From: Verrucomicrobiota bacterium
GTDB taxonomy: Bacteria; Verrucomicrobiota; Verrucomicrobiia; Chthoniobacterales; UBA10450
DNA: 64,000 nt
NCBI GenBank assembly: GCA_003218135.1
Contig: QHNQ01000028.1
Coordinates: 1 to 64,000 of the forward strand
Direction: 5' to 3'
Shown: one piece after another, positions 31,639 to 37,038 of the stretch
Position numbering within the stretch: position 1 is the stretch's first letter
How the letters are laid out: the number at the start of each line of letters is the position of its first letter
Notes under the pieces: generated by a model
What the model saw: only the letters and a program-made list of their open reading frames with translations
The model's database searches: none
Told to the model about the DNA's origin: nothing
Program-made: the position numbers and the translations under genes

Positions 31639-32790
31639 TTATTTTTGCTTCTCGATCAACTCAGCGAACTGATCGAAAAAATATGTCGCGTCGTGCGGGC
31701 CGGGCGCCGCTTCAGGATGATATTGCACACTGAAGATCGGCAATTCCTTGTGACGCATTCCCTCAACCGTGCGGTCGTTCAAGTTGATATGAGTTACTTC
31801 CACATCTGTGGGCAGCGACTCTGCGTCGACGGCGAATCCGTGATTTTGCGCAGTGATTGCCACTTTGCCGGTGCGCAAATCTTTTACCGGCTGGTTAGCG
31901 CCACGATGGCCGAATTTCAATTTGAAGGTCGATCCGCCAAACGCGAAACCGAGAATCTGATGACCAAGACAGATTCCGAAGATCGGCTTCTTGCCCATCA
32001 AATCGTGCACCGTTTCGTGCGCGTAAGGTAGCGCCGCGGGATCGCCGGGGCCGTTGGAGAGAAAAATTCCGTCGGGATTCAATGCCAACGCTACGTCGGC
32101 AGGCGTCGCTGCTGGGACGACAGTTACTGCAAAGCCTTTCTGGCGAAGCAGGCGCAGGATATTTTCTTTGATGCCATAGTCGTACGCGACGACTTGAAAC
32201 TTGATTGGCGGCAGCGCGCGTTTGGTTTCCCCATTACCGGCAATCGACCACGGCACGCTGAACTTGTCCTCCGGGTCCCAGCGGTAAATTTTGTTTGTTG
32301 ATACTTCCCTGACGTAATCCATCCCGATCACGCCCTCGCCTTCAATCGCTCGTTGCGTCGCTTCTGCGGGCGAAATCTGTTCAGTCGTAAGACATGCTTT
32401 CATTGCACCGCGGGTGCGCAGATGCCGCGTCAGCGCGCGCGTGTCGATTTCCTGCCCGCCGGGGATATTCCATCTTCGCAGATACTCATCGAGCGACATT
32501 TCGGAGCGCCAGTTGCTCGGGATCTGAGTCAATTCTTCTATGACGAATCCGCGCACATGCGGCGAGCGGCTCTCCTGATCGAGCGAATTGATCCCGTAAT
32601 TTCCGATCAAGGGATAAGTCATCGCCACGATCTGTCCGCGGTACGACGGATCGGTCAGCACCTCCTGATAGCCCGTCATGGCGGTGTTGAAACAAACTTC
32701 GCCAACGCGCGTGCCTATTGCACCAAATGATTCACCCTCGAAATATCGACCGTCTTCGAGGGCCAGGAGAGTGCGCACGTCACTGCGCAC
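31639..32790 (-). CDS. carA: Carbamoyl-phosphate synthase small (glutaminase) subunit
   Basis: This 383-residue amidotransferase subunit hydrolyses glutamine and passes ammonia to CarB for carbamoyl phosphate, used in pyrimidine and arginine synthesis. The N-terminal domain carries [20 protein letters not shown]. The class I glutaminase domain has SNGPGDPAA near residue 245, the nucleophile Cys274 in [10 protein letters not shown], and [10 protein letters not shown] near the C terminus. The start is GTG at 32790. carB is not in the window. A hairpin repeat (32850-32878) and the 6S RNA terminator precede it, so it probably has its own promoter within 32791-32890. Confidence 0.97.
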
Positions 32791-32890: not shown

Positions 32891-32926
32891 AAAAAAACCC
32901 GGATCGAAAAATTCGACCCGGGTTTT
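32891..32926 (-). terminator. Rho-independent terminator of the 6S RNA / pheT transcript
   Basis: On the minus strand aaaacccgggtcgaa-ttt-ttcgatccgggtttt is followed by a T-run (tttttttg). The stem has one mismatch. It begins right after the closing stem of the 6S RNA and ends the whole rplT-pheS-pheT-6S strand run. Confidence 0.92.
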
Positions 32927-32927
32927 A

Positions 32928-33114
32928 AATTTTACCCCGCTGGTGCCGTTCAGGTGAATTCTCCCGTTCCCTTTTAGGAAAGGGCGGATGACCGTTGCTG
33001 CGGAATCTGACTTCCAATCAAGGCCTGTCATTTTCCGCACCAACCAAGCCTCCGTATTTCGTCAACTATCGGTTCGGGGACGTCACCTCAATCGCGAACA
33101 TCGCAGGGCAAATT
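32928..33114 (-). ncRNA. ssrS: 6S RNA (regulator of sigma70 RNA polymerase)
   Basis: The 187-base minus-strand sequence matches E. coli 6S RNA in ordered blocks: GATGTTCGC near the 5' end, GTCCCC then CCGATA, GGTTGGTG in the middle, and TTCACCTGAACGG toward the 3' end. The 5' aatttgccctgc pairs with the 3' gcggggtaaaatt to form the closing stem, and an inner stem tgcggaa/ttccgca lies at the apex side. Length equals typical 6S RNA (about 185). A strong terminator follows. 6S RNA mimics an open promoter and binds RNA polymerase with the housekeeping sigma factor. The gene lies about 80 bases after pheT and may be processed from that transcript or have its own promoter. Confidence 0.85.
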
Positions 33115-33118
33115 GGAA

Positions 33119-33180
33119 AGCCGCTGGCTGAGAGTTGAACGGAAAGCACTGGTTTCCTGCCCAACCCTCACCGAGCGGCT
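33119..33180. repeat. Long hairpin between pheT and 6S RNA
   Basis: agccgct (33119-33125) pairs with agcggct (33174-33180). The stem continues through ggctgagagttg against caaccctcaccg, and ggaaa/tttcc at the tip, with a few mismatches. It starts 15 bases after the pheT stop. It may be a processing or attenuation structure between mRNA and 6S RNA. There is no T-run. Confidence 0.65.
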
Positions 33181-33195
33181 CTCAATCTCAAAGAA

Positions 33196-35523
33196 CTATT
33201 CGCGCAGTTCCGCGCCGAGGTCGCGCCGCAATCGCTCGCGAATTTTCGCGTGCGCTGCGTTCACTTCCTCACTCGTCAGTGTGCGACTTCGGTCTCGATA
33301 TGTCAATCTATATGCGAGCGACTTTCGTCCCGTCCCGATTTCGCCGCCGCTAAACAAATCGAACAGCTCGATGCTTTCCAAAAGCGGCTCGCGCGGTTCT
33401 CCAATCGTGCGCAAAATTTTTTCCTGCGAGATTTCGTCAGGCACGAGCATCGCAATATCGCGCCTGATCGCTGGATAGCGGTCGAGCTCTCGAAATTTCT
33501 TTGCCGATTCGCCTGTAGCCAAAAGGAGATCGGCGTGCAGCTCGGCAACGAGCACCGAACCTGGCGCGCTCGATTTGTCGGCCAAAAGTTGACCACCGAA
33601 CCCCACTAGCTGGTCGCCGGAACAAACTTCGACCGCGAGCGCGAGACCAGGGAATTTTCCTCGCCGAAACGAAAGATTTGGTACAACGCATTCGAGCGCG
33701 CCCTTGAGATCAAACAAGTCGAGGCTGCGTTTTGCCTGCGATCGCCAGTTCGGTGCGCCAGCGACATTTCCCCAGAGCAAAAGGGCAAGGTGCCGTTCCT
33801 CCTTTCCCGATGGCGGGATGAATGCGCGTCCGATTTCAAAAATCGAAACGCTCTCGGCCCCCGCGCGAATATTTCCTTCGAGCACTCCAAGCAAACCGGC
33901 GATCAAGCTCGGCCGCAGTGCGACGTGATCTTCGCTCAACGGATTTCGCAATTCGACTGCGCCTTTGCTGAACGCCGAAGCGTTTCGCGAAATTAATTTC
34001 GAGGTGCGCGCTTCGAAAAGTCCACGCGCAACCAGTCGCTCGCGCATGTGTGTTTCCAGATCGTACTCGCGATCGGCCGCGGTTGAAGGAGTGAACCGGC
34101 TGCGGTCTCTCCCCGGAATTTTGTTGGCACCGTAAGCGCGTACGACTTCTTCAATAAGATCGACATCGCGCTGCAAATCACGCCGGTAACTTGGAATTTT
34201 CCATTTTGTGATCTTGGCCGCGCTAATCTTCTTCAAACCAAAGTGCGTGAGAATTTCGTCGATCGTTTTGGGTTTGATCGCGATCCCCACGACACGGTCG
34301 CATTTTTCATAGATCAACGAAACGTCAGAGGGGTTCGATGGAAGCTCACCGGCAACGTGAATTTCCCTTGCCACAGTTCCGCCCGTAATTTCTTGAATCA
34401 GTTCCGTTGCGCGAGCTGACGCGCGCAGAACCATTTCCGGGTCGACGCCGCGTTCAAATCGGTAACTCGCGTCGCTTGGAAGATCCAGCTCCCGCGCGGT
34501 GCGCCGAACGCTCGCCGGCAAAAAGTAGGCGGCCTCGAGCAAAACATTCCTGGTCGACTCAGTAACGCCGGTCTCCTCGCCACCCATAACGCCGCCGATC
34601 CCCACAGCGCGTTCTTGATCGGCGACTACGCAATTGTCCGGTTTCAGCGAGTATGTTTTTCCGTCGAGTGCGAGAAACTTTTCGCCATCGCGCGCGAGTC
34701 GAACGTTGATGTCGCCTCTTAACTTATCGGCGTCGAACGCGTGCGTCGGTTGTCCGAGCTCGAGCATCACGAAGTTCGAGATGTCAACGATGTTGTTGAT
34801 CGAACGAATGCCAACGCTCTCAATTTCCGCGCGTAACCATTGCGGACTCGGCCCGACTTTCACTTTGTCGATCCTACGCGCGGAGAAAAATGGACACTCA
34901 GGTGTTGCGGTAATCGTCACGCCGGTTTTTTTGACGGGTATTTTCGCTTCGCGGGGCGTCGACTTGAGTTTCTTGCCGGTCAGCGCGGCGATTTCGCGCG
35001 CGAGACCAAAATGACTGAGCAAATCGCCGCGGTTCGGAGTGATCTCGACGTCGAGAATCGTATCGCTTGGGAAAAGATCGGTAATCGGCGCGCCAACTTT
35101 TGCCTCCGGCGACAAAATCAGCAGACCCGAGGCGTCTTCGCCCAGGCCGAGCTCAATGGGGCTGCATAGCATTCCTTCCGAATCGACGCCGCGCAGTTTG
35201 CTTTTTCGAATTTCGGTCCCGTTCGGCAATTTCGCGCCTGAGAGGGCCAGCGGAACTTTATCGCCGACCTTATAATTGGTGGCGCCGCAAACGATTTGTC
35301 GTTTCGTGCCGCTCCCGTCATCCACTTCGCAAACGGTGAGTCGATCGGCATTCGGATGGCGCGACGACGCGGTAATTTGCGAAACAAGCACCTTCTCGAT
35401 CTTCGCGCGGCAGGTTTCGATGTTTTTGGTCTCGACTCCGGCGCGCGTCAACAAATCGGCGATCTCTTCCGGAGTCCTTGGAAGATCGACAAATTCGCGC
35501 AGCCAATTAACTAAAAATTTCAT
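33196..35523 (-). CDS. pheT: Phenylalanyl-tRNA synthetase beta subunit
   Basis: The 775-residue protein forms the alpha2-beta2 enzyme with PheS. It has an N-terminal MKFLVNWLREFVDLPRTPEE and a tRNA-binding OB domain about 40-150 (HPNADRLTVCEVDDGSG). The B3/B4 editing domain follows (about 200-370, LGQPTHAFDADKLRG). The catalytic-like core comes next, and the C-terminal anticodon-binding FDX-ACB domain (about 680-775) contains YPAIRRDIAMLVPDEIS. The frame is open to 35637, but the ATG at 35523 overlaps the pheS stop by 4 bases and gives the family start. Confidence 0.97.
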   Translation of the reverse strand: MKFLVNWLREFVDLPRTPEEIADLLTRAGVETKNIETCRAKIEKVLVSQITASSRHPNADRLTVCEVDDGSGTKRQIVCGATNYKVGDKVPLALSGAKLPNGTEIRKSKLRGVDSEGMLCSPIELGLGEDASGLLILSPEAKVGAPITDLFPSDTILDVEITPNRGDLLSHFGLAREIAALTGKKLKSTPREAKIPVKKTGVTITATPECPFFSARRIDKVKVGPSPQWLRAEIESVGIRSINNIVDISNFVMLELGQPTHAFDADKLRGDINVRLARDGEKFLALDGKTYSLKPDNCVVADQERAVGIGGVMGGEETGVTESTRNVLLEAAYFLPASVRRTARELDLPSDASYRFERGVDPEMVLRASARATELIQEITGGTVAREIHVAGELPSNPSDVSLIYEKCDRVVGIAIKPKTIDEILTHFGLKKISAAKITKWKIPSYRRDLQRDVDLIEEVVRAYGANKIPGRDRSRFTPSTAADREYDLETHMRERLVARGLFEARTSKLISRNASAFSKGAVELRNPLSEDHVALRPSLIAGLLGVLEGNIRAGAESVSIFEIGRAFIPPSGKEERHLALLLWGNVAGAPNWRSQAKRSLDLFDLKGALECVVPNLSFRRGKFPGLALAVEVCSGDQLVGFGGQLLADKSSAPGSVLVAELHADLLLATGESAKKFRELDRYPAIRRDIAMLVPDEISQEKILRTIGEPREPLLESIELFDLFSGGEIGTGRKSLAYRLTYRDRSRTLTSEEVNAAHAKIRERLRRDLGAELRE

Positions 35524-36536
35524 GCGAACTGGCGAAGGAACCGCAAATCGTTTTGCGCGAAGAGGCGGATGTCGGGGATATCGAACAAAATCATTGCGAG
35601 ACGATCCATACCGAGACCGAAGGCAAAGCCGCTCCACTTTTCCGGGTCGTAAGCTTTGTCGCCGCGCGCTTTGTTGACCTGCTCGAAAACGGCAGGATGC
35701 ACGACACCTGAGCCGGCGACTTCGATCCAGCGTTCACCGCCCTTGAGCGCTTTCGATTTCACGTAAACCTCGAGGCTCGGCTCAGTGAACGGAAAAAAGT
35801 GAGGCCGAAACTCCACTCCTGTATCCGCGCCGAACAATTCGCGCATGAAGAACTCGAGCGTGCCTTTCAAATCGGCCACGCTGACGTTTTCATCGACGTA
35901 AAGACCTTCGATCTGGTGAAACTGCGGGCTGTGCGTTGCGTCCAGTTCGTCGCGGCGATACGCGGCTCCGGGCGCGATTACGCGAATCGGCGGCGGCGCG
36001 CCTCGCATGGTGCGGATTTGCACGGTCGAAGTGTGCGTGCGCAGCAATCGCCCGTCCGGCAGATAAAATGTGTCCTGCTCGTTGCGCGCCGGATGTTCGG
36101 GTGGCGTGTTGAGCGCATCGAAACAATGCCATTCGTCTTCGACGTCCGGCCCATCTGCGAGCGCGAAGCCCATCCGACGAAAAATTTCGATCGAGCGCTC
36201 CCACATTTGGGTCAGCGGATGCAATGCGCCAATGTCGCGCGGCGTTCCGGGAAGTGAGATGTCGATTTTCGCGAGCGCACCCGATTCTTTCTGCGATCGA
36301 AATTGTTGCGCACGCGCTTCGATTGCGGCGGTGACGGCGTTGCGAACGTCGTTGAGCAACTTACCAATGACCGGCTTCTCTTCCTTCGCGAGCGTTTTCA
36401 TTTGCTCGCCCCACGCGGAAACGCTGCCGCTCTTTCCGAGATATTTTACGCGTACGGACTCGAGCGCCTGTTCGTCAGGCGCGGAACCGATTTCGCGCAG
36501 CGCTTCGTCGCGGAGTTGTTCGAGCGGGTGGGTCAT
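35520..36536 (-). CDS. pheS: Phenylalanyl-tRNA synthetase alpha subunit
   Basis: The 338-residue class II synthetase subunit has an N-terminal coiled coil (about 1-85). The catalytic core shows HPLTQMWERSIEIFRRMGF, GPDVEDEWHCFDALNTPPEH (motif 1 region) and RTHTSTVQIR, then motif 3 GFAFGLGMDRLAMI near the C terminus. It attaches Phe to tRNA-Phe together with PheT. The ATG at 36536 was chosen over an open frame to 36776, because the extra residues overlap an intergenic repeat. pheS follows rplT by 124 bases. Confidence 0.97.
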   Translation of the reverse strand: MTHPLEQLRDEALREIGSAPDEQALESVRVKYLGKSGSVSAWGEQMKTLAKEEKPVIGKLLNDVRNAVTAAIEARAQQFRSQKESGALAKIDISLPGTPRDIGALHPLTQMWERSIEIFRRMGFALADGPDVEDEWHCFDALNTPPEHPARNEQDTFYLPDGRLLRTHTSTVQIRTMRGAPPPIRVIAPGAAYRRDELDATHSPQFHQIEGLYVDENVSVADLKGTLEFFMRELFGADTGVEFRPHFFPFTEPSLEVYVKSKALKGGERWIEVAGSGVVHPAVFEQVNKARGDKAYDPEKWSGFAFGLGMDRLAMILFDIPDIRLFAQNDLRFLRQFA

Positions 36537-36583
36537 TGGAGCGAAACGTGAACGTTTAGCGCGCGATGTCCAACGCGAATCGG

Positions 36584-36660
36584 GTAGCGCCCGCATCTTA
36601 CGGGCAGTGATCGACATCCTGCCGATCAGAAATGCCGCACGCCGGGAGCGTGCGCTCCCG
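36584..36660. repeat. Composite repeat between rplT and pheS
   Basis: agcgcccgcatcttacgggc and the hairpin gggagcg-tg-cgctccc (36643-36658) fill most of the gap. A related gggagcg...cgctccc pair lies inside the 3' end of mrdA at about 52810-52840. Confidence 0.6.
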
Positions 36661-37038
36661 TCACGCCGCTTTTTTGTTCTTCTTCTCCAGCGCTGCTTTA
36701 GCCTGGTCAATAACCGATTTAAATGCCGCTTCGTCAGTGACTGCGAGATCGGCAAGAATTTTCCGGTCGAGGCCAATGCCGGCGGCTTTCAATCCTTCCG
36801 CAAAACGGCTGTAGTTCATTCCATTCGCGCGCGCAGCCGCATTTAGCCGTTGAATCCAGAGATAACGAAACGTGCGTTTCCGCGTTTTGCGGTCGCGGTA
36901 CGCCCAATACCGCCCTTTCATGATCGCGTCTTTCGCGTAGCGGAAAAGTTTTGAACGGCGACCGCGGTAGCCTTTGGCTTTTTTTAAGATTCGTTTACGG
37001 CGCGCCCGGCTGGCCGGGGCATTAGTGGCTCTTGGCAT
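36661..37038 (-). CDS. rplT: Ribosomal protein L20
   Basis: The 125-residue basic protein of the large ribosomal subunit has [20 protein letters not shown], then [20 protein letters not shown] and [20 protein letters not shown], which are diagnostic. In E. coli L20 also represses its operon by binding its own mRNA. Here the usual upstream rpmI and infC are absent. The gene starts its own run rplT-pheS-pheT. A hairpin (37047-37068) and a larger structured element (37099-37158) precede the ATG at 37038 and could be a feedback leader. Confidence 0.97.

Follow-up and report, generated by a model that had tools for sequence, protein, structure and literature searches.

The 64,000-nt stretch of DNA analyzed here (the window) almost certainly carries, judging from its sequence and from that of its relatives, a genuine 6S RNA gene (ssrS) of a Candidatus Udaeobacter-like member of the Chthoniobacterales. 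Using an Rfam scan without the curated cut-off, we found a match to the 6S model (RF00013) at positions 32930–33112 of the minus strand (183 nt; 38.9 bits, E = 2.1e-6) that spans model positions 1–187, which is its full length. A preliminary description had proposed an unlabelled 6S RNA gene of 187 nt at 32928–33114 and named RF00013 as the model to search with; its coordinates proved right to within 2 nt, and the match is significant although its score lies below the Rfam gathering cut-off of 46.4 bits. Because of this shortfall, default Rfam annotation overlooks the gene, and a default scan of the window returned a tRNA as the sole match. Orthologues at the same place in ten family genomes reach 46.5–53.9 bits, so the low score probably reflects divergence of the lineage and not the failure of a functional feature. 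There was no other convincing 6S candidate in a whole-genome search, where the second-best RF00013 match had an E value of 3.7. Three other candidates near the 3' end (sX11, anti-hemB and asX2) were rejected, as their matches come from the terminator hairpin, with scores far under the respective cut-offs.

The predicted fold agrees with this identity. For the 187-nt stretch, the folding energy is −77 kcal/mol compared to −55.4 kcal/mol for shuffled sequences (z = −5.6; 0 of 200 as stable). Its ends pair with each other (UUUGCCCUGC with GCGGGGUAAA), giving the closing stem that had been described, and the sequence blocks quoted earlier all follow one another on the minus strand as stated: GATGTTCGC, GTCCCC, CCGATA, GGTTGGTG and TTCACCTGAAC. 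Covariation supports the 6S structure, a rod with a closing stem, a large central bubble and a terminal stem-loop: in an alignment of 67 distinct sequences from relatives, 10 of 45 consensus pairs were changed on both sides while 98.5% of cells remained paired, compared to 33–48% in slid controls, and none of 500 shuffles was equally good. The strong terminator said to follow immediately is also present, as an intrinsic terminator at 32894–32926 on the minus strand (a 15-pair stem, then a T run); it plausibly sets the 3' end of the 6S transcript, and an equivalent lies downstream of nearly every relative's copy.

The RNA itself is ordinary and belongs to a known family. It shares with 6S/SsrS RNA (RF00013) its length, full-model alignment, closing stem, central bubble, long apical stem and terminator, and, as a rule, its occurrence in one copy per genome. 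It differs in scoring below the curated cut-off, in having no promoter that we could see, in its position between pheT and carA and in the boxA-like element upstream. 6S RNA is a promoter mimic that ties up RNA polymerase. By analogy with the family, the product would fold into a long rod whose central bubble imitates an open promoter, would bind the housekeeping RNA polymerase holoenzyme as growth slows and would be released once it has served the polymerase as template for a short product RNA.

Within the family, we examined 83 genomes; 69 gave matches to 6S at E ≤0.01, 10 of them above the cut-off, and in two more genomes the 6S 5' motif stands immediately behind pheT. This motif is common to Chthoniobacterales, Spartobacteria, Candidatus Udaeobacter, Chthoniobacter flavus and similar organisms. 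In a sample of the whole phylum, 148 of 289 genomes had a match, 100 of them over the cut-off and as a rule one per genome. One assembly (G078) contains two 6S loci (L043 and L060), both behind pheT, which are probably due to contamination or a mixed bin and not to a true second copy. At another locus (L184, 4186–4362, minus strand), a 71.2-bit 6S RNA has the same 5' motif and no adjoining pheT.

The genes around 6S, named by NCBIfam, all lie on the minus strand. Upstream is pheT, which encodes the phenylalanyl-tRNA synthetase beta subunit (33196–35637, with the likely start near 35523; TIGR00472, 728.6 bits), in the same run as pheS (35520–36776; TIGR00468, 307.1 bits) and rplT for ribosomal protein L20 (36661–37053; TIGR01032, 152.1 bits), the first gene of the run rplT-pheS-pheT-6S. 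Past the terminator lies carA (31639–32790; TIGR01368, 499.9 bits), so that both neighbors were named correctly in the preliminary description. It had also offered the pair as a syntenic anchor, and this holds better for pheT than for carA. All 70 family loci have a same-strand pheT as the immediate upstream neighbor, mostly at a distance of 80–136 nt but at 15–45 nt in some relatives, and pheT has this position in 28 of 50 loci from a phylum-wide sample. A search with nothing but a 21-base 6S motif gave 84 places; 81 are behind pheT, and one of the remaining three is cut by a contig end. The next gene after 6S is carA in 61 of 70 family loci, and the usual downstream neighbor in other classes of the phylum is rarA. 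Because pheT precedes 6S in both the family and phylum samples, we regard pheT-6S as an old arrangement in the phylum and carA as a local neighbor.

Several of the sampled loci extend this picture of the neighborhood. Loci L072–L093 and L202–L211, from other classes, have the order pheT-6S-rarA, and in some of them a likely 5-formyltetrahydrofolate cyclo-ligase gene comes next. A Spartobacteria genome (UBA695; locus L138, 3618–4304, minus strand) has an RNase P RNA gene ~110 nt downstream of 6S on the same strand, giving the order pheT-6S-rnpB.

In the window, pheT and 6S are separated by a gap with a boxA-like sequence, GTTCTTTGA, whose start lies inside the pheT stop codon. The element itself (GTTCTTTGAGA, 33186–33196, minus strand) has as its first G the last base of the stop codon TAG (33198–33196). 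All 70 family loci have its GTTCTTT core upstream of 6S, and in nearly all of them it starts within the pheT stop codon; downstream controls gave 1 of 70 and antisense controls 0 of 70, and a stricter motif is matched by 61 of the 70 loci. Among 28 pheT-linked loci outside the family, 16 have the core G[CT]TCTTT ≤60 nt from 6S (0.54 expected from shuffles) and 12 lack it within that distance; 2 of 22 unlinked 6S loci contain it (0.35 expected). The boxA-bearing loci outside the family span at least 10 families, but all loci are related by descent, so these counts are not independent.

The element is identical in its core to the motif of the phylum's own rRNA operons, where boxA is the antitermination site for NusB–NusE, and like that motif it stands ahead of a structured RNA that is not translated. 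In three family genomes, the 16S leader contains TTCTTTGATTAAAAA ~177 nt before the 16S gene and shares TTCTTTGA with the window; these three are the only family genomes whose rRNA leaders were read, and the first boxA base in them is T or A, not G. In other members of the phylum, GTTCTTTGANA is present in rRNA leaders or 16S–23S spacers. Pattern searches of the source genome gave 10 sites for GTTCTTTGANA compared to 1 when the pattern was reversed as a control. The sites other than the one before 6S apparently lie for the most part inside reading frames, and we therefore draw no wider boxA regulon from them. The boxA consensus in gamma-proteobacteria is GYTCTTTAANA, and boxA is also known at suhB (PMC5725501). 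Unlike the rRNA-operon elements, the one in the window starts within a protein gene's stop codon and stands ahead of a 6S RNA. Both nusB and rho are present in the genome. For the Rho RNA-binding domain there are two separate matches (G000:C18:10411-10620 and G000:C132:5867-6085), each in a frame of ~470 codons, and the genome possibly has two rho genes. We consider GTTCTTTGA likely to be a working boxA.

Between boxA and 6S lies a conserved hairpin of ~68 nt (33116–33183, minus strand; 81.2 bits with our model R1) that is kept in most family members and has no match to any Rfam family in the scan of the window. In 34 sequences, compensatory changes were seen at 13 of 28 pairs, with 95.7% of cells paired, and several pairs are most often G-U, which points to an element acting as RNA. 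Relatives with short gaps do not have the ~68-nt hairpin and have smaller hairpins instead, so the ~68-nt form is not essential for making 6S. We dropped the idea of a single-copy element, since the model also matches weaker palindromes elsewhere in several family genomes (up to 21 matches, both strands counted); for the same reason, the hairpin may derive from a repeat family. That it is a processing or insulating element is a guess.

Promoter scores tend to differ between loci linked to pheT and free-standing ones. The minus strand of the window showed no sigma-70-like promoter in the gap from pheT to 6S. Just upstream of 6S in the family loci, the mean score was 4.48 compared to 5.11 for shuffles, with 1 of 70 loci above the 95% line. 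Loci outside the family with pheT directly upstream scored near their shuffles (4 of 28 above the line), and free-standing 6S genes of the phylum, where copies carry TTGAC-type promoters, scored higher than theirs (12 of 22). A boxA stands before 6S mainly where pheT precedes it, and free-standing 6S tends to have a promoter. The scan covered sigma-70-type sites close to the 6S start; a promoter of another type, or one inside pheT, is possible.

These observations bear on how the stretch should be read. A chance likeness to 6S RNA might be suspected from the score below the gathering cut-off, but an E value of 2e-6, a single genomic place, and 67 relatives that keep the RNA at one gene position and show covariation leave practically nothing to this idea, which the comparative evidence rules out. 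It is also very improbable that pheT simply has a long 3' untranslated region here, as a structured tail or some other regulator, with no separate 6S. Such a region would suit a stretch that probably lies within the pheT transcript and follows a long hairpin in the gap, but it sits badly with an RF00013 match over the full length, with a terminator that comes after 6S and not after pheT, and with the same RNA found free of pheT, and with higher 6S scores, in other lineages of the phylum.

A further alternative accepts the 6S gene but gives it its own promoter, either of a type that the scan does not recognize or inside the 3' end of pheT, in which case nearness to pheT would be inherited gene order and GTTCTTTGA would have another use. 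Many 6S genes do have their own promoters, as do the free-standing copies of this phylum, and there are promoter-like sites at two pheT-linked loci outside the family (L192 and L209), which are among those lacking the boxA core. We nevertheless consider this alternative unlikely, given family promoter-likeness below that of shuffles, the lack of a minus-strand site between pheT and 6S in the window, gaps of just 15–45 nt in some relatives and a boxA core fixed at the pheT stop codon. Overall, the explanation of the stretch as a 6S RNA gene is very probably correct, and we grade its expression separately.

The lack of a promoter signal together with boxA upstream suggests that transcription of pheT runs on under boxA protection and that the RNA is then cut. 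RNA polymerase would read on from rplT-pheS-pheT into 6S, and the transcript would carry at the pheT stop codon a boxA for NusB–S10 (NusE), which may shield the downstream untranslated stretch from Rho. The RNA would then be cut in or near the conserved gap hairpin, with the 3' end forming at the terminator downstream of 6S. Production of 6S by read-through from pheT, and not from its own promoter, is probable on these sequence grounds. The fuller proposal, that Verrucomicrobiota 6S is the untranslated tail of an rplT-pheS-pheT unit and depends on the boxA in the pheT stop codon, we favor only slightly.

There is a partial parallel in Aquifex aeolicus, from a phylum distant from Verrucomicrobiota, where the 6S region overlaps an annotated pheT (PMC4227106). 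There, 6S reads were depleted by an exonuclease acting on 5'-monophosphate RNA (382 versus 1384 reads; primary-transcript-enriched library), which fits a processed 5' end (PMC4227106). Expression of 6S by read-through with boxA appears to be undescribed so far. A literature text search for boxA and 6S RNA returned one paper, about Shigella Hfq and invE, that appears unrelated, and the authors of a boxA target survey state that it left non-coding RNAs aside (PMC5725501). The boxA and the apparent dependence of 6S on pheT transcription may be what is new to specialists.

These results add a 6S RNA missed by default Rfam annotation to an abundant, poorly studied soil lineage, and they make the place behind pheT a reliable spot to look for others. 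If the proposed mode of expression is true, boxA control would extend to 6S RNA, and an RNA that restrains RNA polymerase would be linked to the rRNA antitermination machinery. The supply of 6S would then be tied to the expression of translation genes and to rRNA antitermination factors, not to a dedicated promoter. A comparison is at hand within the phylum, where pheT-linked 6S tends to have boxA and free-standing 6S a promoter.
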